Part shown: positions 1 through 56,834 of the stretch, in pieces
Layout: every line of letters begins with the position of its first letter
How positions within the stretch are numbered: position 1 is the first letter of the stretch
NCBI RefSeq assembly: GCF_018831625.1
Contig: NZ_CP065193.1
Coordinates: 62,001 to 126,000 of the forward strand
DNA: 64,000 bases
Direction of reading: 5' to 3'
DNA from: Spiroplasma endosymbiont of 'Nebria riversi'
Lineage (GTDB): Bacteria > Bacillota_I > Bacilli_A > Mycoplasmatales > Nriv7
Made by a program: the position numbers and the translations under genes
The notes under the pieces: generated by a model
Databases searched by the model: none
What the model saw: the letters and a program-made list of their open reading frames with translations, nothing else
What the model was told of the DNA's origin: nothing

Positions 1-2088
1 GTTGAAAAGTTAACTGTTGCTTTTGCAATGATTGCTAACGGGCGTAAAATTGTAATGATTTGTGACGCTGTAAGCATTCAGTTTAGCATTTTAATACCAG
101 CATTTTGAATGGTAGGACCAGTATCATTAAATGTTGGTATTCATCGTCCGGAATATTTGCAATTTGGCGGTGGAATTAGGTCATCCCATTCTGAATTGGT
201 GGAACCATCAGGGATAAATGCCGTTGAATTAAGCACATTAAAGTCATAAATTTTAAAATTATATTTAGAAGTATTATCTTTGTGATAAAGTGGAAAAGTT
301 AAGGTAAAAATATTAATACCATAACAAATATCAATGTCGGTGTTAAGATAATTAATATTATTATCAGTGTTGCTGGCTGACAATTTAATCATTTTATTGT
401 CATAAGATTTAAGAACATTAAAATCAATTTGATAAATGCTATTGTTGTTTTTAATGGCATTATAATTATCTTGGTGCGTTTTTTTGTCAAAAGTAAAAAA
501 ATAACTTCTTAGTAGTAATTCTGAATTACCAGTAACATTGATTAAATATTTTTTTGGATAAAAGGTAATTAACGAGCGGTAAAAGAAACCAATTTGAATA
601 AAGTGGTTCTTTTTATAGTTATCTACGCCTTTAAAATCGATTTTGGTATGAGTTTTTTCATCCATATCAAAAGTAGCATAAAATAAACTGGCAAAGAAGT
701 TACCAAGGATTTCATAGATTTCGTCAAAAACATTTTTGTAATCGCTGTTGTTAATGCTAGGAATGTTGTTTTTAAAATAAAGGTAAATGTCATTTCGTAA
801 TTCAGGGTCGTATCTCAAAAAACTAAATTTAACATTAAGATAATTTAAGGTACCAAAAAGATACTTAATTAGGTAATAATCGTTAGCATTTGCAGTGTCA
901 TATTTTCAGATTTCACTTTCACCGTGTAGTAATTTGTAAATAATTATTTCCAGCAATTAGGGTTTTGTTAAAAGCTTTAATTTTAAGGACATTATCCTTG
1001 GTATCCTCTTGTTTCGGAATGACCATTTTAATCGTATTTGTTCCTTGCAATTGTGTACTTTGTTTCAATTGCAATAAATTTAACGGTAAATGTTCTGTCG
1101 GCGACATTGTCTGTTGTTAAATTAAAAGTAGCCCTATCATCTAAGTAATTGTTGTCGTTATCTTTAATTTCTGTATTATAGTCGATGCCTTCAATTGCAT
1201 TATTTACACCAGCAAGATTGTTGATTGTTTCATTAAGTCTTTTTTTAATTTTTTTATAACTTCAATTTTGGTTGCATTTGTAGGGTCGATTATTTCTGAG
1301 TTTGGTAAAATAGTTGAATTTTTTTGATAAAAATAGCTTTCATTTTTAAAACCATAATTTTTAATCGTAAATTCTTTGTAATAACCTTTTTCTAAAGTAT
1401 CAATGAAATTAAATATTGCTGTTCAATAGAGATAAGAGTAATTAAATTTATCAAAATCACCACGATGAATCATTAAATAGTCAAGATTATCAATAACATC
1501 GTCGTATTTATGGTTACCGTCAAAATTAGTGGTTGTTGCTGGTAAGTTAATGTCGGTACTATCTTTTTTAATTTCAATTTCAAAATTATTTGTTTTATTT
1601 AATCTATAATTGTTAGTATTACCATGTTCAAAAGTTAGTAATTCTGTTCCTTGTGCTTTAATTCTTATTGTTTTATTGGGTATTTTAATCATTCAGGTAT
1701 AAAAATTTAAACCCGAAGTATCTATTTTTGTTCCATAAGTATTTGTTATTTTTTGAAAGTCTTTTTGTTTAATTCTGTTATTTACAAGCTCTGCATTAAA
1801 CTCTAAACTAAAAATTTTTACATTTTTTAAATTTGATAATTGTTTATCTATATTTGCTTTTATATTATCTTCTGTTGTTATCTCAACTTTTAAAAGGTCG
1901 TGGTCTTGCCTTTCCGTTAAAAATCTTATTTTTTCTAAGTTTCTGATTTCAAAATCATAAACTTTATTGTTTTGTCTTTTATTTCTAATTAGTGATTGTA
2001 CTATTGTTTTGTCATTGTTAATGTTTTGGGGAATGGTAAAAATGTTATTGAAACCAATAATTAAAACGGTAAATATTTTCATAAACAT
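1..2088 (-). pseudogene. Plectrovirus adsorption protein (pIII/G3P-like), frameshifted, runs off the window
   Basis: The start ATG at 2086-2088 follows an AAGGAG site and encodes a signal peptide (MFMKIFTVLIIGFNNIF). The N-terminal domain (about residues 20-165) differs from copy 2, while everything from the motif TNFDGNH onward is closely similar to copy 2. The reading frame is broken at least three times: in an A-rich run near 1238-1256, between about 1030 and 1110, and by an extra A near 930. The 3' part reaches the left edge and still encodes the C-terminal region ahead of the membrane anchor. By analogy with filamentous phage pIII the protein would bind the host receptor and sit at the virion tip; this role is inferred from architecture. 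Confidence 0.75.
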
Positions 2089-2103
2089 TTTTACCACTCC
2101 TTT

Positions 2104-3228: not shown

Positions 3229-3513
3229 TTATTTACCTTGTTTTGTTTTTATTGGTTTTATTTGTTTTTTAGCTTTTCCTCACGCACTTAACCGCCCTTT
3301 ATTTTTAACCGCATATTGGCGTTGTTTTTCTAAATTAACTTGTTGACTACCAAATCCAAGAATAATTGCCATAAGAAATTCTACAGCCAGCGTTAAGAAT
3401 AAAGGAAATATTAATTGAATATTCGTTCCCGGCACTTCTAAACTTCAAATTAAGTCAAAAACCTTATAAAGCATTTGACCCAGAAAGTCGGCCATTTTTG
3501 CGAGATTTTCCAT
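3229..3513 (-). CDS. Plectrovirus membrane protein (copy 1)
   Basis: A 94-residue protein matching 24110-24394. It has an amphipathic N-terminal half, a membrane segment around residues 32-52 (KLIFPLFLTLAVEFLMAIIL in copy 2) and a strongly basic C-terminus. It follows the Zot-like gene closely and precedes another small membrane gene by 2 bases. It is likely part of the virion or of the assembly/extrusion apparatus; no specific family could be recognised. Confidence 0.6.
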
Positions 3514-3519
3514 TTTTTA

Positions 3520-4418
3520 TTATTCCTTTTCTTTCATTTTTCTTAAAAATTTGCTAAATTTATCCATTTTTAAATATTCTAAGTCTTCTAAATCAATTGC
3601 GGTGTCATTATAGTATTTGTCTTCATAGTCAGGATTTACTTTTGAATTTAAGTAATCTCTTAAAAATGCTAGGTAAAAAGAATTGTAAGTGTTTAATATT
3701 GGTAGAGGGATTTTTAGTTTAAAAAAATAAATATCAAGTTCAGGAATATCAAGGTATTTAATGCGACGACCCTTTTTACTATTTTTAGCATCAATTAAAG
3801 TGTTTCGTAAGCGTTCATATTCTTCAATGCCCGTAAAGGTACCATAGATGACTTTTAAGTAAGGGCGGAAAATATTAACTGGTTTTTTGCGAATCCCCAC
3901 AATCACATTATTAGCAATATCACGAACTTTAACTCATATATGTTTATCTCTTTGCCCACTAGCGAAAACAATATGACCAAAATGGCGTGCCAGAGAGAAA
4001 TATTCTTGGATACCGGTTTCCTCGTTTTTGGTATTATTTTTTTCTCAATCAGTTCCTTCTAAAAATAAATTGGTTTCATCTCATAAAAGTAAGGTTTTGT
4101 CTGGCAATACCGGATAATCAAAGTCTAATAATCCCATATGCCCTAAACTTAATTTTTGGGTTTCTAGTAATGGGAAAGTTGATGCGATATGATATTTCTT
4201 CTTTTTTAGTAATTTTGATGCGTATACTAGAAAAGCGGTTTTTCCAGTTCCTAATGAACCAATAACGATGTTTAATGGTGAATTTTTTAAAAAATTAATA
4301 ACTTTGTTAATTTGTGTTAAATTACTGATTTTAAAAAGGAAAATTAAAATACGACCCGCTAAAAATAAATAACTTACAATGTTTTTAAAATAACCGTTGT
4401 AAATATATCAAATTCCGC
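3520..4418 (-). pseudogene. Zot/G1P-like assembly ATPase, 5' end deleted
   Basis: The remnant encodes the P-loop region (Walker A GSLGTGKT) and the C-terminal part ending in KFLRKMKEKE, almost identical to the intact gene at 23120-24106. A deletion of roughly 120 bases relative to copy 2 joins the end of the coat-like gene directly to the interior of this gene at about 4413-4418, removing the start codon and first membrane-proximal residues. No alternative start lies upstream of the P-loop, so it is probably not functional. Confidence 0.75.
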
Positions 4419-4656
4419 TCCAAGTAATTTTTCAAACATTTTAAAGCAAATAAAGAATATTGCCAAAATAAATGGAAAAATGAAGATTCAGTAATCAGCA
4501 AAGAAGTTACCGACTTATGGCATATTAACAGCAATAATTTCTCACATTTTAGTAAAAGCCGTTATAATTGCATTTCATAATTTAGTCATCGCGTCACTAG
4601 CTGTTATTTTTTCTACTGTTGCTGGTGCTTCTCCTGCTAAGAAAGTTCCAAACCAT
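4418..4656 (-). pseudogene. Plectrovirus major coat-like protein, broken
   Basis: It corresponds to the intact 81-residue gene at 22850-23095. Here an extra G after the start codon shifts the frame, a CAA codon has become TAA at 4515-4517, and the 3' end is fused to the truncated ATPase gene by deletion. Residues matching the coat protein helix and its C-terminal membrane span remain recognisable. Confidence 0.75.
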
Positions 4657-4675
4657 ATAATCACCCCCTTTCTTT

Positions 4676-4810
4676 TTAAAACATTCATCATTTATATTCA
4701 AAGTTTTTCTTAAATTTGTTAAAACCACGATTAACCTTAACACGATTATATTTTTTCCTAATTAATTTTGAATTTCTTTGGGAATGCATCACAATGTAAC
4801 TTCTTGACAT
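4676..4810 (-). CDS. Small basic plectrovirus protein (copy 1)
   Basis: A 44-residue, very basic peptide beginning MSRSYIVMHSQRNSKLIRKK and ending KWWMF (both W from TGA). Copy 2 (22711-22830) has 39 residues, lacking a five-residue insertion. It lies directly before the coat-like gene. Its charge suggests DNA contact, for example in packaging, but this is inference only. Confidence 0.55.
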
Positions 4811-5957: not shown

Positions 5958-7102
5958 TTTAATTTTGTCGAAAACTCTTGATAAAATAAAAAAAATCATC
6001 AACTTGATAATTTTAAAAGGCTTTTATGTAAAATTACTATTTTTACTTTAATTTTTTATACATTAAAATATAATACCGCTGTTTGTTGGTTTGGAGCTAA
6101 ACCCTTATGTTGGTATTTTCATTTTCAGAGATTTAAATAATTTTGAATATTAGTAAAACCTAAACCGTGATAATGAGTTAAGGCTTCTTTAAGGCTAGAT
6201 TGTAATTTACTGATTTTATTTAAGTTACGATAACTAGCTTCAGGATTAATTGTTGTTTTAGTTGCACATAAAGTAGAATTTGTTTGTTTTGCTACTAAAA
6301 AATATAATTTTTGCATATCAGAAGTAATAATTGAATTTTGGTTAATTAATTCTTTGTTCATATTTTCAATAACTCATTGTTTTTGTAAACGTTTGGTGTT
6401 TGTGTATTTAACATAAATATTGTTATTATTATCAACTGCCATTTGAATACAGCATTTAGTATTAGTTGCGAATGGGTCAAGGTGAATTCTTCGTGGATCA
6501 GTTTTATGTTTGAAATTTCCTTTATGAATTTCTTTAATAAATGTTTCATCGATTTGGATTTTACCAGATAATTTTTTAAATTTTAATTGGGTATTTTCTA
6601 ATTGTTTTGATTTCATTAATTTTTGACGATTATATCAAGCAGTTTTTAATTTAGTTTTAATAAAACGAGAAATTGTTTTACTAGATTGCCCCAGCAATGA
6701 AATTTGAATCAATAAATTTCATTGTTCATAATTTAAATGACTTCAATAAATAAAATGATTACGAAAATCGTCAAAACTTGCACGGCAATTTTTACATAAA
6801 TATTTTTGTTTTCCTTCTGAATTATGTCCATTTTTAACGCAATGGTAAGATTCACATTTATGGCATTTAATACCTTGTGCTCTAAATTTTTGATCAATTT
6901 CATTTAAACGTTTTTGTTTTTTTTTATTAATTCTGCTTGTTGTTTGACTTTTTCATAAAATTCTAAAAATTGATCATCTGTTAAAGTATTTACTAGTTAT
7001 TGAATTATTTTTTCCATAATTATTATCCACCTCTATCATATTAAAAATATACCTAAAATTAAGTATATTCAATAAATATCAAGAGTTTTCGACAAAATTA
7101 AA
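5958..7102 (-). mobile_element. IS1595-like element, copy a, inside plectrovirus copy 1
   Basis: The element has near-perfect terminal inverted repeats (TTTAATTTTGTCGAAAACTC at the left, its complement at the right). It is flanked by the 10-base duplication AGAAATTTCT (5948-5957 and 7103-7112), which is itself palindromic. The uninterrupted site is seen in copy 2 near 21568-21577. The insertion splits only viral non-coding DNA. Confidence 0.85.
6056..7017 (-). pseudogene. IS1595-like transposase, broken
   Basis: Homologous along its whole length to the intact 319-residue transposase at 13706-14665. Codon 7 is TAA, and two extra bases in a homopolymer near 6910-6920 shift the frame. The zinc-ribbon cysteines (CxxC pairs) and the QIDETF motif are still recognisable. 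Confidence 0.85.
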
Positions 7103-21753: not shown

Positions 21754-22080
21754 ATGAAAAACATTGAAAACATTTTCTTAAATACTAAGAAATATCTTTT
21801 AAAAGAAACACAAAACGCAATGCTTATTAAAGCGCCAAAAATTCCATGATTTAATGAACAAATCGGTATTTGGTTTCCAAAGCGATTTGTTCATAAAGGA
21901 AAATATGAAAATTAGATTTGTGTCAGAATAATCAAGGATAGTAAATATCAAGTAATTTCAATTAATCAAAAAGAAAATGAAACCAAATTAATTAAGGGAC
22001 AAGAATTATTAAGCTTCTTCATTGCCGAAAAAGAAAACAACAAAAAAGATATAAATTATAACTATTTTAAAGGAGTTTAA
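21754..22080 (+). pseudogene. First plectrovirus gene with nonsense codon (copy 2)
   Basis: Same 108-codon length as 5441-5767, but codon 54 is TAG (21913-21915), in the segment GKYEN. All other differences are substitutions. The truncated 53-residue product probably lacks function. Confidence 0.8.
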
Positions 22081-24109: not shown

Positions 24110-24394
24110 ATGGAAAATCTCGCAAAAATGGCCGACTTTCTCGCCCAAATGCTTTATAAAGTTTTTGATTTAATTTGAAGTCTTGAAGTACCGGGAACAA
24201 AAATTAAACTAATATTTCCTTTATTCTTAACGCTTGCTGTAGAATTTCTTATGGCAATTATTCTTGGATTTGGTAGTCAACAAGTTAATTTAGAAAAACA
24301 ACGCCAATATGCCGTTAAAAATAAGGGTCGTTTAAGTGTATGAGGAAAAGCTAAAAAACAAATAAAACCAATAAAAACAAAACAAGGTAACTAA
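24110..24394 (+). CDS. Plectrovirus membrane protein (copy 2)
   Basis: 94 residues: amphipathic N-terminus, one membrane span near residues 32-53, and a basic C-terminal tail (KAKKQIKPIKTKQGN). It starts 3 bases after the ATPase stop. The copy 1 version is also intact. Likely a virion or export protein; no family recognised. Confidence 0.6.
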
Positions 24395-25302: not shown

Positions 25303-25327
25303 AATATTTTAAAAAGGAGTGATAAAA

Positions 25328-27049
25328 ATGTTTATGAAAATATTTACCGTGTTAATTATTAGTTTCAATAACATTTTTACTATTCCCCAAAACATTAACA
25401 ATGATGAACTAACAACACAATCACTAATTAGAAATAAAAGAGAAAGTGAAGAAACTTATGAATTAAACTTAAAAAAAGGATTTGTTTACTTAGTAAAAAA
25501 TAGATGAAAAAAACCTAATACTGATATAAAATGAGATTTATATATACATACACAACAATGACCAATAAATATGCCAAACTGAATAAAAATTGATAAGGTA
25601 TCTCCAATTAACGAAAAGACAATACATAGCATAATAGATAATTACCACGCAAAAAACGAAAATATTCTTGATGAACTTACAAAACTCAACTTTAATATCA
25701 AGTATGAAGAAATTGAAAACGGTAATATTCAAAAAAAGGAAATCGTTAATCTAAAAGTGACAATATTAAAAAACCCTACTTGAACACAAATAATAACAAA
25801 AATTGAAGGTCAAATAAGACCATCAACTGATATTGAATTACCCACAACAATAACTAATTTTGACGGTAACCATAACTATAGTGATGTTATCGATAACCTT
25901 GATTATTTAATGATTCGCCGTGGTGATTTTGATAAATTTAATTACTCGTATCTCTATTGAACACCCGTATTTAATTTCATTGACACCTTAGAAAAAGGTT
26001 ACTATAAAGAATTTATGATTAAAAATAACGGATTTAAAAATGACAGCTATTTTTATCACAAGACTTCTAGTGATAAAAATGTAGTAAATGAGAATATTTT
26101 GAAAATTAAGGCATTTAACAAGACCTTAATTGTGGGTAATAACTATTTACAATTATTACATGGTGAAAGTGAGATCTGAAAATATGACACCACGAGCGCT
26201 AACGATTATCACCTAATTAAGTATCTTTTTGGGACCTTAAATTATCTTAATGTTAGATTTAGTTTTCTACGCTATGACCCCGATTTAAAAAATGATATTT
26301 ACCTATATTTTAAAAATAACATTCCTAGTATTAACAACAATGATTATAAAAATGTTTTTGATGAAATCTACGAAATCCTTGGCAATTTCTTTGCTAGTTT
26401 ATTTTATGCGACTTTTGACATGGACGAAAAAACTCATACCGAAATTGATTTTAAGAGCGTAAAAAACTATAACAAGGGCTACTTTATTCAAATTGGATTT
26501 TTTTATCGCTCGTTAATTACTTTTTATCCCAAAAAATACTTAATAAATGTTATAGGAAATTCAGAATTATTACTAAGAAGTTATTTTTTTAATTTTGATA
26601 AAAAAACGCACCAAGAAAATTTTAATGCCATTAAAAACAACAATAGCATTTATCAAATTGATTTTAATGTCCTTAAATCCTATGACAATAAACTGATCAC
26701 ATTGCCAACCAGCAAGACTACTAACAGTATTAATTATCTCAATACCGATATTGATATTCGTTATGGTATTAATATTTTTACCTTAACTTTTCCCTTGTAT
26801 CATAAGGCAAATACTTCTAACTACAATTTTAAACTCTATGACTTTAATGTCTTAAGTTCCGTGGCGTTTATCCCTGATGGTTCCACCAATTCAGAATGGG
26901 ATGACCTAATTCCGCCACCAAATTGCAAATATTCCGGACGCTGAATACCAACATTTAATGATATTGGTTGTGCCATTCAAAATGCTGGTATTAAAATGCT
27001 AAACTGAATGCTGACAGCTTCACAAATCATTACAATTTACGCCCGTTAG
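25328..27049 (+). CDS. Plectrovirus adsorption protein (pIII/G3P-like), C-terminally frameshifted
   Basis: A 573-residue frame with many TGA Trp codons. The ATG is chosen for AAGGAG 9 bases upstream; a GTG at 25319 is inside the ribosome site. It starts with a signal peptide (MFMKIFTVLIISFNNIF). Residues about 38-165 form an N-terminal domain also found in the lipoprotein at 27238. Residues from about 175 on (TNFDGNH onward) are conserved with copy 1. A T missing from TTTT near 27035 shifts the frame so that translation ends at 27047-27049. The original frame continues to 27186 and encodes a membrane anchor (FQFLIGFAIFLMILRIFV). Signal, variable head and C-terminal anchor are the layout of filamentous-phage pIII. 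Confidence 0.7.
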
Positions 27050-27186
27050 CAACTATTGCAAAAGCGACAGTTAACTTTTCAACCGCCATTTTTCCAGTTT
27101 TTAAAACGGTACCAGATTTTTACTATACCTTTCAATTTTTAATCGGTTTTGCCATTTTTCTAATGATATTAAGGATTTTCGTATAA
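27050..27186 (+). pseudogene. Out-of-frame C-terminal anchor of the adsorption gene
   Basis: The frame lost at the one-base deletion continues here as ATIAKATVNFSTAIFPVFKTV and the terminal membrane span, ending at TAA 27184-27186. Without it the truncated protein would not be anchored. Confidence 0.75.
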
Positions 27187-27205
27187 TATATATATATATA
27201 TATAT
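27186..27205 (+). repeat. (AT)10 dinucleotide tract before the viral lipoprotein gene
   Basis: Twenty uninterrupted alternating A/T bases directly after TATAAT (27182-27187) and 33 bases before the lipoprotein ATG. The corresponding place in copy 3 (55770-55792) has a different, interrupted TA tract, so the length varies. Confidence 0.85.
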
Positions 27206-27237
27206 CGAAAAAATAAAGTAATAAAGGAATTAAAATA

Positions 27238-27708
27238 ATGAAAATTTTAAATGCAATAGTTCTTCGAGGGCTAATAACATTGCCAGTAGTTGGATGTTCT
27301 AAAAAAGAAAATAAAATAATATTATCTAATAAAAATGAAACTCATGAATTAAACTTAAAAAAAGGATTTGTTTGCTTAGTAAAAAATAGATGAAAAAAAC
27401 CTAATACTGATATAAAATGAGATTTATATATACATATACAACAATGACCAATAAATATGCCAAACTGAATAAAAATTGATAAGGTATCTCCAATTAACGA
27501 AAAGGCAATACATAGCATAATAGATAATTACCACGCAAAAAACGAAAGTATTCTTGATGAACTTACAAAACTCAACTTTAATATCAAGTATGAAGAAATT
27601 GAAAACGGTAATATTCAAAAAAAGGAAATCGTTAATCTAAAATTAACAATATTAAAAAATTCTACTTGAACACAAATAATAACAAAGATTGAAGGTCGAG
27701 ACCTTTAA
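27238..27708 (+). CDS. Viral lipoprotein carrying the adsorption protein's N-terminal domain
   Basis: 156 residues after an AAAGGA site. The N-terminus is a lipoprotein signal (MKILNAIVLRGLITLPVVGC, lipobox PVVGC). From residue 41 to the end the protein is almost identical to residues about 38-160 of the adjacent adsorption protein (HELNLKKGFVCLVKNRWKKP...TWTQIITKIEG), then ends at GRDL. It would display the adsorption domain on the cell surface. The copy 3 gene at 55359-55739 has the same signal with a different domain. A receptor-blocking or superinfection-exclusion role is my inference. Confidence 0.7.
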
Positions 27709-27999: not shown

Positions 28000-29836
28000 T
28001 TAAAAAAATGTTTCGCCGTTAAATGTTATTTTATCATTGTTTTTATCTATAGTAATTTCATTGGGTAATAAACTATATTTTTTTAAAATTTGCATTACTT
28101 CTGTAATTGATAATGTAACTATTTGTTCTTTATTGTTGTCATCAATTATTTTGGCAGTAATATTTCCTGTAATTTTTTGTTTTAAATTTAATATAATTTC
28201 AGATTCAATTATTCTTACTGGATAAGTAATTTTTAATTTTTCATTAGGATTGAGTTCAAATTTATAAGTGGGTTCCTTAAAAATACTTAAAATCATTTCT
28301 TGTTCTTGTTTATTTGTGTTTGATAAATCAAATTCATTTGATAATACATTAATGATTCCAGAATTTTTATTATTTATATTTGTAAAATCTGTTAATTTCA
28401 TTTCATCATCAGAATTTATGTTTCAACCATTTAATTTATTTTCTTGTTTTGTTTTAGTTAATCCTGTTGTAATTTGAAATACTAATTTTGATTTTGAATT
28501 ATATTCACAAGCAGGTACATTAAATGATCTTGTATTTGGGGTTTTATTGATAATTTCTCTATCGGAACATACATTTTTAGGAACATTAGATCATAAAAAT
28601 GAATTTTCTTGTTTTGTTATTTCAGTATTTGAAAAATTTAAATTATTAGTATCAATATAATTTATTTCCTTAAATTTTAAATTAGGATTTTCATCTCTAA
28701 ACTTAAAAAATATTGCATTTTTAATTAATTCATTTAAATTAATAATTTTATTTTGTTCATTTTTAATTAAATAATATATATTTATAATATCATCATTTAA
28801 ATTATCTTTTATCTTTACTATAGCGGAATTATTTGTTTTACTAATAATTTCTAATTGTGAAATATCTAAATCAGGATTTAAATAATTTAATTCATTTAAA
28901 ATTGCATTATCAGAATTATCATTAATTTGCCCTAAATTTGAATCTAAATAGTACTTCACTATATTCATAAATATTACCATCTGCCGACCCAAAATATAAT
29001 TTGTTATTTAACACCACACCAGAAGATTCATTTCATGAACCTGTTGTGGGGATAACTCTTTGTTGTTCTGTGGATGGATCATATTCATAAACATTTTTAT
29101 CTCCTGAACCAAAATATATTTTATTGTTGAAAATTACACCCGAGGATCTTATACTTTGAGAATTATTTGTTTTAATAACAATTTTTTGTTGTCCTGTAGC
29201 GGGATCATATTCATAGACTTTATTATCATCAGAACCAAAATATAATTTGTTGTTTAAAACCAATCCAGAAGATTTTATAGGATTATTACTATTTGTTGTT
29301 CTTAGAACAATTTTTTGTTGTCCTGTGGCTGGATCATATTCATAAATATTACCATCATCTGAACCAATATATAATTTATTGTTAAAAATTACACCAGAAG
29401 ATCAAATAAAACCATTTGTTTTAATGACAATTTTTTGTTGTCCTGTGACTGGATCATATTCATAAACTTTGTAGTCTCATGAACCGAAATATACTTTGTG
29501 GTTTAAAACCACGCCCGAAGACCAAACATTACCATTTGTTCTTAGAACAATTTTTTGTTGTCCTGTGGCTGGATCATATTCGTATACTTTGTTGTCTGCT
29601 GAACCAAAATATACTTTATTATTTAATATTATCCCATCAGATCGAACTATTCCATTTGTTGTAATTACAATCTTTGTTATATTTATTTTATTATTTTCAT
29701 TATTGCTTCGTTTTTGTCTTTTATAATTTATATTTTCTAATTGCTCTTGTTTTTGATAAGGACTATTGGCAACAATTCCTGACATTCCGCTTCCCGCTAT
29801 TGTTATTGCACTTAATAAACTAAGCAACTTTTTCAT
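28000..29836 (-). pseudogene. Secreted PQQ-like beta-propeller protein, frameshifted (six blades)
   Basis: The start at 29834-29836 encodes a signal peptide (MKKLLSLLSAITIAGSGMSG). About six repeats of roughly 38-43 residues follow, each with the core LNNKLYFGSDDNKVYEYDPATGQQ (spelled here in pieces: LNNKLYFGS, VYEYDPATG), as in PQQ-type propeller proteins. The propeller frame ends at 28922-28924 because of an indel near 28950. The downstream domain (LNYLNPDLDISQLEI...) continues in another frame to TAA at 28000-28002. It was probably one surface protein of about 600 residues. A second decayed copy with three blades lies at 53312. Confidence 0.75.
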
Positions 29837-30036
29837 GTTAATCAAATCATTTTCGTGAATTTTTAATAAATTAATAAAATTTACCAAACAATCAACATCC
29901 TTTCTCAAATTTTTACAGTCTAATTAATACAAATTAATTATAAACTATCAAATAATAATTTCTATTATTTTTTCAAAATATTGAATACTAATTTTAGAAA
30001 AACATTTATCTTTAAAAAAGAAAAAATAAGCATGAC

Positions 30037-53311: not shown

Positions 53312-54805
53312 ATGAAAAAATTACTTAGTTTATTAAGTACAATAACAACAGCAAGTAGTGGAGTAGCGGTTTTTGTTGCCAATAGTCCTTATCCAACAAA
53401 AGAACAACAAATTAAATTAGAAAAAATAAATTATAAAAGACAAAAACGAAGCAATGATGAAAATAATAAAATAAATAGAACAAAAATTATTATTAAAACA
53501 AATGGAATAATTTATTCTTCAGGTCTTTTTTTTAATGATAAACTTTAATTTGGTTCAGAAGATTATAATGTTTATGAATACAACCCAGCGACAGGCCAAC
53601 AAAAAACTGTTATTAAAACAAATGTTTGAATTGAATCTTCTGGAGTTGTTTTAAATAATAAATTGTATTTTGGTTCAGATGATAATAATGTTTATGAATA
53701 TAATCCGGTAACAGGAAAACAAAAAATTGTTATGACAACAAATGCGCGAACCGCTTCTTCGGGGGCTATTTTAAATAATAAATTATATATTGGTTCATCA
53801 GATAAAAATGTTTATGAATACAGTAATTATGATTTAAATTCTAATTTAGGAAAAATTAGTAATAATTTTGATAATATAATTTTAAGTGAATTAAATTATT
53901 TAAATCCTGATTTAGATATTTCACAATTAGAAATTATTAGCAAAACAAATAATTTAGCTATAGTAAAGATAAAAGATAATTTAAATAATGATAATAATAT
54001 AAAAATACATTATTCAATTGATAATCAACAAAATAAAATTATTAATTTAAATGAATTTCTTAAAAAAGCATTATTTTTTAAATTTCAAGATGAAAATCCA
54101 AATTTAAAATTTAAAGAAATAAAATATATTGATACTAATAATTTAAATTTTTCAAATACTGAAATAACAAAACAAGAAAATTCATTTTTATGATCTAATG
54201 TTCCTAAAAATGTATGTTCTGATAGAGAAATCATAAATAAAACTCCAAATACAAGATCATTTAATGTATCTGCTTGTGAATATAATTCAAAATCAAAATT
54301 AGTATTTCAAATTACAACAGGATTAACTAAAACAAAACAAGAAAATAAATTAAATGGTTGAAACATAAATTCTGATGATGAAATGAAATTAACAGATTTT
54401 ACAAATATAAATAATAAAAATTCTGAAATCATTAATACATTATCAAATTAATTTGATTTATCAAACACAAATAAACAAGAACAAGAAATAATTTTAAGTA
54501 TTTTTAAGGAACACGCTGATAAATTTGAACTTAATCCCAATGAAAAATTAAAAATTACTTATCCAGCAAGAATAATTACATCTAAAGTTATATTAAATTT
54601 AAAACAAAAAATTACAGGAAATATTACTGCCAAAATAATTGATGATAACAATAAAGAACAAATAGTTATATTATCAATTACAGAAGTAATGCAAATTTTA
54701 CAAAAATATAGTTTATTATCCAATGAAATTATTATAGATAAAAACAATGATAACATAACATTTAATGGGAAAGCATTTTTTCATCAGAAAGAGAAGGGCC
54801 AGTAA
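53312..54805 (+). pseudogene. Secreted PQQ-like beta-propeller protein, second copy (three blades)
   Basis: Preceded by AAAAGGATTT. Signal peptide MKKLLSLLSTITTASSGVAV. About three propeller repeats, against six in the copy at 29836, then the same C-terminal domain (YLNPDLDISQLEIISKTNN). TAA at codon 79 (53546-53548) and at codon 380 (54449-54451) break it; a one-base loss near the end also alters the terminal residues. Divergent from ISLre2 element C. Confidence 0.75.
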
Positions 54806-54950
54806 GAACAAATACAGTTACTACTATAGTATAAGGTTTTATAAAAACGATATTAGCTATTTAAAATAATAACTTTAATTGGAACAAGTACAACTATTTT
54901 AGTTGCTTGTGAAAATAAAAATTAAGGAAGTGTAATATAAATAAATTTTA

Positions 54951-55022: not shown

Positions 55023-55358
55023 GTTGTTCAAAGGTGTTGTTATCGTAAAAAGCCATCTTTCTTTGGGTAGTTACAGTTTTTAAAATATGCTATTTAGCAT
55101 TTCAAAATATGGTTAAGAAATGAACGATGCCAATTCAAAATTGTGGTAGTGCGATTTCACATTAATTTTTTTTAGGGGGGCCACAGAGTGAATTTAAGTT
55201 AATTACTTGGAGACACAGTTAATTGTACTACAGTCCCATTATTTTTTTAATTCGGCTTTAAATTCTAGTTTTTTTCACCAGTTTCATATTACGCCGGCAA
55301 AAGTATCTTTTTAATATTCAAATTTTATTTTAATCTTTTTTATTTTGATATTTTGTTT

Positions 55359-55739
55359 TTATTCTTTTCCAACTTCTGTTCATTTTGTATTTATTTGTAA
55401 TTCGTTAAGTTTTTTAATAATATTAATTTGATTTTGATTAATATAACTTTGAATTCGTCCTTTATTGTCTCATAACTCTTCTACAGGATTTATTGGGTTT
55501 ATTCCTGATTGCTTCTCTATATCATTTAATGAAAATTGCACTTCGGTTTTTCACGCTGGTGCAGGCTTATAAGGGGTTTCATTTTTTCATATTGTAAATT
55601 CCGCTTCTGTTAAGTTAATTTCAGATACTTGATTACTTTTTTTTAATTTAGGTATTATTATTTCATTTGTTTTTTTGGAACATCCAACTATTGGCAATAT
55701 TGTTAATTCTCAAAGAGCAATTATATTTAAAATTTTCAT
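55359..55739 (-). CDS. Viral lipoprotein with a different surface domain (copy 3)
   Basis: 126 residues. The signal (MKILNIIALWELTILPIVGC) matches that of 27238, but the mature part (EAEFTIWKNETPYKPAPAW...) is different in sequence. After the TAA stop the homologous-looking frame continues to about 55250 with another TAA, so the domain may have been longer. Preceded by AAGGGAATTAAAATA. It lies directly downstream of the adsorption gene, as in copy 2. Confidence 0.5.
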
Positions 55740-55925
55740 TATTTTAATTCCCTTATTACTTTATTTTTCAATATATATTATATATATAATACACGAAAAT
55801 CCTTAAAATCATTAGAAAGATGGCAAAACCAATTAAAAATTGAAAAGTATAGTAAAAGGCCGGTACTGTTTTAAAAACCGGAAAAATCGCAGTTGAAAAA
55901 TTAACTGTTGCTTTTGCAATAATTG

Positions 55926-56834
55926 CTAATGGTCGTAAAATCGTAATGATTTGTGATGCCGTCAGCAGTTTAACATTTTGATACTAGCATTCTGAATGGC
56001 ACAACCAATATCGTTAAAAGTAGGTATTCATCGTCCAGAATATTTGCAATTTGCTGGCGGAATTAAATCATCTCATTCTGAATTGGCGGAACCATCAGGG
56101 GTAAAGGTCGTGGAATTTAATACATTAAAGTCATAGATTTTAAAATTGTAGTTAGAGTTGTTTCCTTTATGATAAAGCGGAAATGTTAAGGCAAAAATGT
56201 TACTACCATAACGAATATCAATGTCCATATTAAGGTAATTGATGCTGTTAGCAGTCTTGCTGGTTGGCAAGGTAATCAGTTTATTATCATAGGATTTTAA
56301 AACATTAAAATCAATTTGGTAGATACTATTGTTGTTGTTAATGGCATTATAATTTTCTTGGTGCGTTTTTTTATCAAAAGTAAAAAAATGACTTCTTAGT
56401 AATAATTCTGAATTACCAGTAACATTAATTAAGTATTTTTTTGGATAAAAAGTAATTACCAAGCGATAAAAGAAACCAATTTGAATAAAATAATCTTTGT
56501 TATAGTTGTCTACTCCTTTAAAATAGTTATAATTTATATCTTTTTTGTTGTTTTCTTTTTCGGCAATGAAGAAGCTTAATAATTCTTGTCCCTTAATTAA
56601 TTTGGTTTCATTTTCTTTTTGATTAATTGAAATTACTTGATATTTATTATCTTTTATTTTTCCAATGCAAATTGAATTTTCATATTTTCCTTTATAAACA
56701 AATCGCCTTGGAAACCAAATACCGATTTGTTTATTAAATCACGGAATTTTTGGCGCTTTAATAAGCATTGCGTTTTGTGTTTCTTTTAAAAGATATTTCT
56801 TAGTATTTAAGAAAATGTTTTCAATGTTTTTCAT
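55926..56834 (-). CDS. Hybrid ORF: first viral gene fused in frame to the adsorption protein C-terminal half
   Basis: A 302-codon open frame. Residues 1-107 equal the first viral protein (MKNIENIFLNTKKYLLKETQ ... NYNYFKGV). They continue without a break into the adsorption protein interior (DNYNKDYFIQIGFFYR ... NCKYSGRWIPTFND). The joint lies at TCCTTTAAAAT, short homology between the two parent genes. A 4-base loss near 55977 then shifts the frame, ending at TAG 55926-55928 and removing the membrane anchor. It keeps the first gene's ribosome site. Whether it is expressed is unknown; it may simply be decaying. Confidence 0.6.

Follow-up and report, generated by a model that had tools for sequence, protein, structure and literature searches.

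A truncated phage lipoprotein gene of a Spiroplasma endosymbiont appears to duplicate the adsorption head of its phage, with a probable role in type-specific superinfection exclusion

We analyzed a window of 64,000 nucleotides from the Spiroplasma endosymbiont of 'Nebria riversi' (NZ_CP065193.1, positions 62,001 to 126,000), to which all coordinates refer unless another record is named. From sequence comparison, the short gene at 55359..55739 (-), in the third phage copy, appears to be a truncated member of a family of phage lipoproteins whose mature part duplicates the variable adsorption head of the phage. The matching of head and lipoprotein is a general rule, with some exceptions. By analogy with known systems, the lipoprotein probably displays the receptor-binding head of its phage, thereby occupying the receptor and shutting out phages that carry that head.

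The copy 3 reading frame is real, as an earlier note on this DNA had assumed. It starts with ATG, encodes 126 aa under translation table 4 (the mollicute code, in which TGA reads as Trp) and begins MKILNIIALWELTILPIVGCSKK. The signal lies at 55683-55739, the lipid-acceptor Cys codon at 55680-55682 and the mature domain at 55362-55679 (all -). That note had also claimed a common signal with a different mature domain, and both observations hold: the signal (MKILN..LPIVGCSKK) is that of the 27238-27708 reading frame, which reads MKILNAIVLRGLITLPVVGCSKK, and the mature domains belong to head type B in copy 3 and head type A in copy 2. Profiles of the two types aligned with an hhalign probability of 8.6%, a value on which we claim no shared ancestry for the head types. 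Comparison with intact 167-aa relatives placed the remainder of the gene at 55239..55361 (-), where recognisable homology continues in unchanged frame beyond the stop at 55359-55361 and across a second stop at 55311-55313 to an end near 55239. Since intact relatives measure 167-169 aa and the window copy has two in-frame stops, we regard it as a truncated gene of head type B (assigned from the reading frame and its relatives, cluster 5). A frameshift was ruled out, as both stops are in frame. The copy 3 adsorption gene (55926..56834, -) retains its constant tail and is headless, as previously noted; its N-terminus, joined by fusion, belongs to another phage gene (compare 21754-21915). A TA-rich tract remnant is found between the two copy 3 genes (55765..55795).

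The copy 2 adsorption gene (25319..27049, +) has a type A head at about residues 42-165 and a shortened C-terminus (576 aa versus 619-630 aa in relatives). The copy 2 lipoprotein (27238..27708, +) has a type A mature domain that shares 93% identity with the preceding adsorption head. In copy 1 the adsorption gene is interrupted; it has a third head type (KVYDFEIRNLEKIRF; 1204..2097, -) and a constant tail at 1..956 (-), and the matched lipoprotein lies just beyond the window edge (G000:C1:61853, -). Upstream of the copy 2 adsorption gene at 25319 we found a Zot-like ATPase related to SpV1 ORF2 (23108), the reading frames at 24110 and 24397 and three further small ORFs. This resembles the ORF2-ORF5-ORF9-ORF1 order of Plectroviridae (SpV1), in which the Zot-like ATPase and two small ORFs precede the gene for the adhesion protein (ORF1, CoaA). 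Profile comparison of the adsorption tail with the Plectroviridae adhesion protein gave an hhalign probability of 82% (E 1e-5, 262 columns), and neither lineage I nor lineage II adsorption proteins (the two lineages described below) matched DUF3688.

A basic (R/K)xKR motif resembling a processing site follows the adsorption-protein signal peptide in several phage lineages. Instances are 25319-25441 in the window (signal end IRNKRE), L136 (KREKRATN) and L178 and L180 (RTKRS). The motif is also present in a window repeat protein (YKRQKRSN, 53312-53548). The repeat protein, built of units like LNNKLYFGSDDNNVYEYDPATGQQKIV, occurs in two copies, 53312-54900 (+) and 28000-29908 (-), each near a plectrovirus copy, and the former is interrupted by stops.

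Relatives of the copy 3 lipoprotein were numerous in the window genome and in four others from its genus. Several were paired about 1.9 kb apart, and in these pairs the upstream member is an adsorption gene head. Loci were fetched by the constant adsorption tail (70 of a first lineage and 10 of a second), with 18 more retrieved via the lipoprotein; heads and lipoprotein domains were then cut out by their constant flanks and clustered. The earlier note had proposed a search for an adsorption head matching the copy 3 domain, holding that its reading would fall if none existed. Such heads were found in the intact 630-aa adsorption genes of L047 and L048, both with a downstream 167-aa lipoprotein 79-80% identical to the window reading frame, and also in the broken adsorption genes of L049, L050, L053 and L046. 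Within this type, own pairs share 93% identity over 130 aa. Pairing, which was beyond reach in copy 3 itself, is therefore found in other copies, and the parallel once drawn between the constant signal with its variable domain and the adsorption gene mosaic is borne out: the head of the lipoprotein is that of its neighbour in 45 of the 47 classifiable pairs from the five same-genus genomes, across 11 head clusters. The two remaining pairs (L123, L051) have disrupted adsorption genes. Identity averaged 92.8% within own pairs versus 25.8% in other pairs (36 non-redundant pairs). None of 20000 permutations reached the observed identity, and the same was true when lipoproteins were shuffled within clusters only. 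Since related loci cannot be counted as independent, we place more weight on how many types are involved: 11 clusters, several of them containing sub-types, all hold matched pairs. In lineage I the distance from the adsorption start to the lipoprotein is usually 1.87-2.25 kb. The search pattern for this lineage included the lipobox, whose frequency here is accordingly not independent evidence. We also considered whether lipoproteins outlive their phage and found no support for the idea, as by eye an intact lipoprotein with a broken adsorption gene was about as common as the reverse. Separately, adsorption reading frames of about 720-735 aa (L061, L127, L128 and others) contain a central insertion of about 100 aa, which occurs with more than one head type.

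The same arrangement was found in a second adsorption-gene lineage of the genus (class II; L055:12128-13984 and L133-L142), with tails about 46% identical to those of the first and present in the same genomes. All 10 sampled class II loci have a downstream lipoprotein carrying the matching head, 91-98% identical to their own. Its signal is unrelated to that of lineage I (MRKFLSALNLVCIMFISGCS and variants) and it begins about 35 bp past the adsorption stop in most loci, at nearly constant spacing. Among SpV1-like phages of the citri clade, head types match in 27 of the 30 loci with a recognisable ORF1. Here ORF1 contains the variable segment, flanked by DNWKLI and GEITDW, a domain position different from that in lineage I, and the lipoprotein gene, on the other strand, is convergent with ORF1 and has yet another signal. 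The G176 and G146 loci likewise hold intact matched pairs. In SkV1_CR2-3x the lipoprotein is encoded at 6521-6042 and its variable part is identical over 71 residues; in SpV1-C74 it matches in type and its reading frame is broken. The gene is unannotated in both. The annotated inverted repeats of SpV1-C74 (1668-1913 / 3300-3543) and SkV1_CR2-3x (4386-4676 / 6197-6487) correspond to the ORF1 copy of the head and the copy in the lipoprotein region. These records give the repeat alone, and the lipoprotein gene and its covariation with ORF1 are missing from the annotation.

Matching is not absolute and the lipoprotein gene is not indispensable, as indicated by intact-looking adsorption genes that have no lipoprotein and by a mismatch in an isolated phage. 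Such adsorption genes without an adjoining lipoprotein were found in L063, L083, L085, L098, L105, L114 and L119, and with a broken one in L073 and L075. The three mismatched SpV1-like loci (L146, L167, L173) are the isolated phage R8A2B and two proviruses. These cases bear on the idea that the lipoprotein is part of the virion or of its assembly site, where its head would pair with the identical adsorption head in a same-domain oligomer during extrusion through the membrane. An oligomer of both heads would likewise need a matched pair, and both proteins have export signals, but phages lacking the lipoprotein beside an intact adsorption gene, and the mismatched R8A2B, would then be non-viable. 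Gene order and orientation also vary between lineages, and we consider a structural role unlikely.

Heads and tails recombine, and the lipoprotein tracks the head regardless. Among 34 non-redundant tails, only 18 had a nearest tail bearing a head of their own cluster and 16 had one bearing a head of another cluster, and tails with different head clusters are sometimes 97-98% identical. Synonymous divergence (dS) was 0.047 within own pairs, 0.171 between two heads of one type and 0.187 between a head and the lipoprotein of another locus. Similarly, 123 of 185 head nucleotides private to a single locus were also present in its own lipoprotein, versus 12.7 expected from other lipoproteins. The low own-pair dS and the common private nucleotides mean that the pair is kept alike by conversion within the locus or by repeated re-duplication, and are compatible with either. 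The lipoprotein is under only moderate selection (dN/dS 0.57 in the mature part and 0.61 in the signal). Homogenisation of own pairs at synonymous sites, with private nucleotides common to both, is also what might be expected of a DNA reserve, that is, a cassette from which the adsorption head is rewritten or repaired by gene conversion. However, a cassette that is always of the expressed gene's type cannot switch it, nor would it have any need of a signal peptide, lipobox or ribosome-binding site, although all of these occur in three lineages whose signals are unrelated. We find such a cassette very unlikely.

In most lineage I loci, the interval from the adsorption stop to the lipoprotein ribosome-binding site holds a (TA)n tract, 8-40 nt long; in copy 2 the tract lies immediately 5' of that site (27180..27206). 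Its length varies among near-identical copies (L091/L092/L093; L106/L107; L089/L090/L097), as in phase-variable promoters. The tract might mediate phase variation, but such tracts mutate easily, and this one was found in lineage I only. Spiroplasma surface lipoproteins are often variable, which together with a tract of varying length 5' of the gene in lineage I could point to a surface adhesin or variable antigen directed towards the arthropod host, its head match reflecting shared ancestry and conversion. This reading has a low probability in our view, for it leaves unexplained why, across three lineages, each of many head types should be a copy of that in the adjacent adsorption gene, and neither the near-constant spacing of class II nor the convergent SpV1-like layout has room for the tract.

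We favour exclusion by receptor occupation. Sequence establishes four points: a lipoprotein signal, adjacent genes, matching heads, and homogenisation of both copies locus by locus. A phage lipoprotein with predicted signal and lipobox is found in three lineages, in all of which its gene adjoins that of the receptor-binding protein, and the SkV1 signal matches the NCBIfam mollicute model LP_plasma above cut-off. Spiroplasmas have a single membrane and no wall, and their lipoproteins are for that reason normally at the cell surface. The phage lipoprotein would be exported to the outer face of this membrane and anchored there, and its head would occupy the receptor to which the virion would otherwise attach on the host. 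Adsorption would be blocked for phages sharing that head but not for those with other heads, amounting to type-specific superinfection exclusion. A change of head would require a change of lipoprotein to retain exclusion, such that the pair would stay matched and rare head types would be favoured. Matched pairs would be required as well if heads bound themselves and the lipoprotein were a phage-made receptor marking cells for phages of the same type. Phages would then be confined to cells already infected, and we know of no precedent for such a receptor; we give this possibility hardly any weight. No head-matched lipoprotein gene was found in the genomes of SVTS2 and SVGII3, so the resistance of S. 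citri to SVTS2 associated with integrated SVTS2 DNA (PMC8140453) has another basis.

We see the case as evenly poised for a wider proposal, in which plectroviruses form serotype-like exclusion groups through a lipid-anchored head copy maintained by conversion or re-duplication, with same-type exclusion driving head diversity, and in which at least three lineages acquired or rebuilt the arrangement, using unrelated signals. Type-specific exclusion would give a likely role to a gene left unannotated even in the reference phages SkV1 and SpV1-C74. With exclusion predicted from head type, it would also provide a readable code of which phage should exclude which, and a possible reason for the extreme head diversity and the many plectrovirus copies per spiroplasma genome.

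Comparison with described exclusion and defence families returned no convincing match in Pfam, NCBIfam (the signal aside), PADLOC or named PHROGs, and we thus do not assign the lipoprotein to Llp or Cor. PDB sequence searches gave no convincing relative, and no matches were obtained for the window lipoprotein and adsorption queries in IMG/VR and GTDB contig scans or INPHARED tblastn. AlphaFold confidence was low (pLDDT 44.5 for the lipoprotein head and 27.5 for the whole adsorption protein), owing to shallow alignments. No description of a head-matched lipoprotein was found in the family libraries or in the open-access literature covered.

The closest parallels are functional. Llp of phage T5 is a lipoprotein encoded directly 3' of the receptor-binding protein gene and excludes superinfection (PMC9586334); like Cor of T1-like phages, it resembles the spiroplasma proteins in being a small phage lipoprotein whose gene adjoins that of the receptor-binding protein. 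In contrast, Llp acts from the periplasm of a Gram-negative host and reshapes the receptor (PMC9586334). It is not described there as a copy of pb5, whereas the mature domain of the spiroplasma-phage lipoprotein appears to duplicate the head of its phage and varies along with it. In the Ff phages, of the same order Tubulavirales, the adsorption protein pIII made in the cell saturates its receptor TolA and blocks superinfection (PMC7070036). There the structural pIII itself excludes, whereas the spiroplasma phages would use a separate gene with the variable head only and a lipid anchor. Spiralin-like mollicute lipoproteins are alike in signal only (SkV1, LP_plasma), the mature domain being phage ORF1 sequence.
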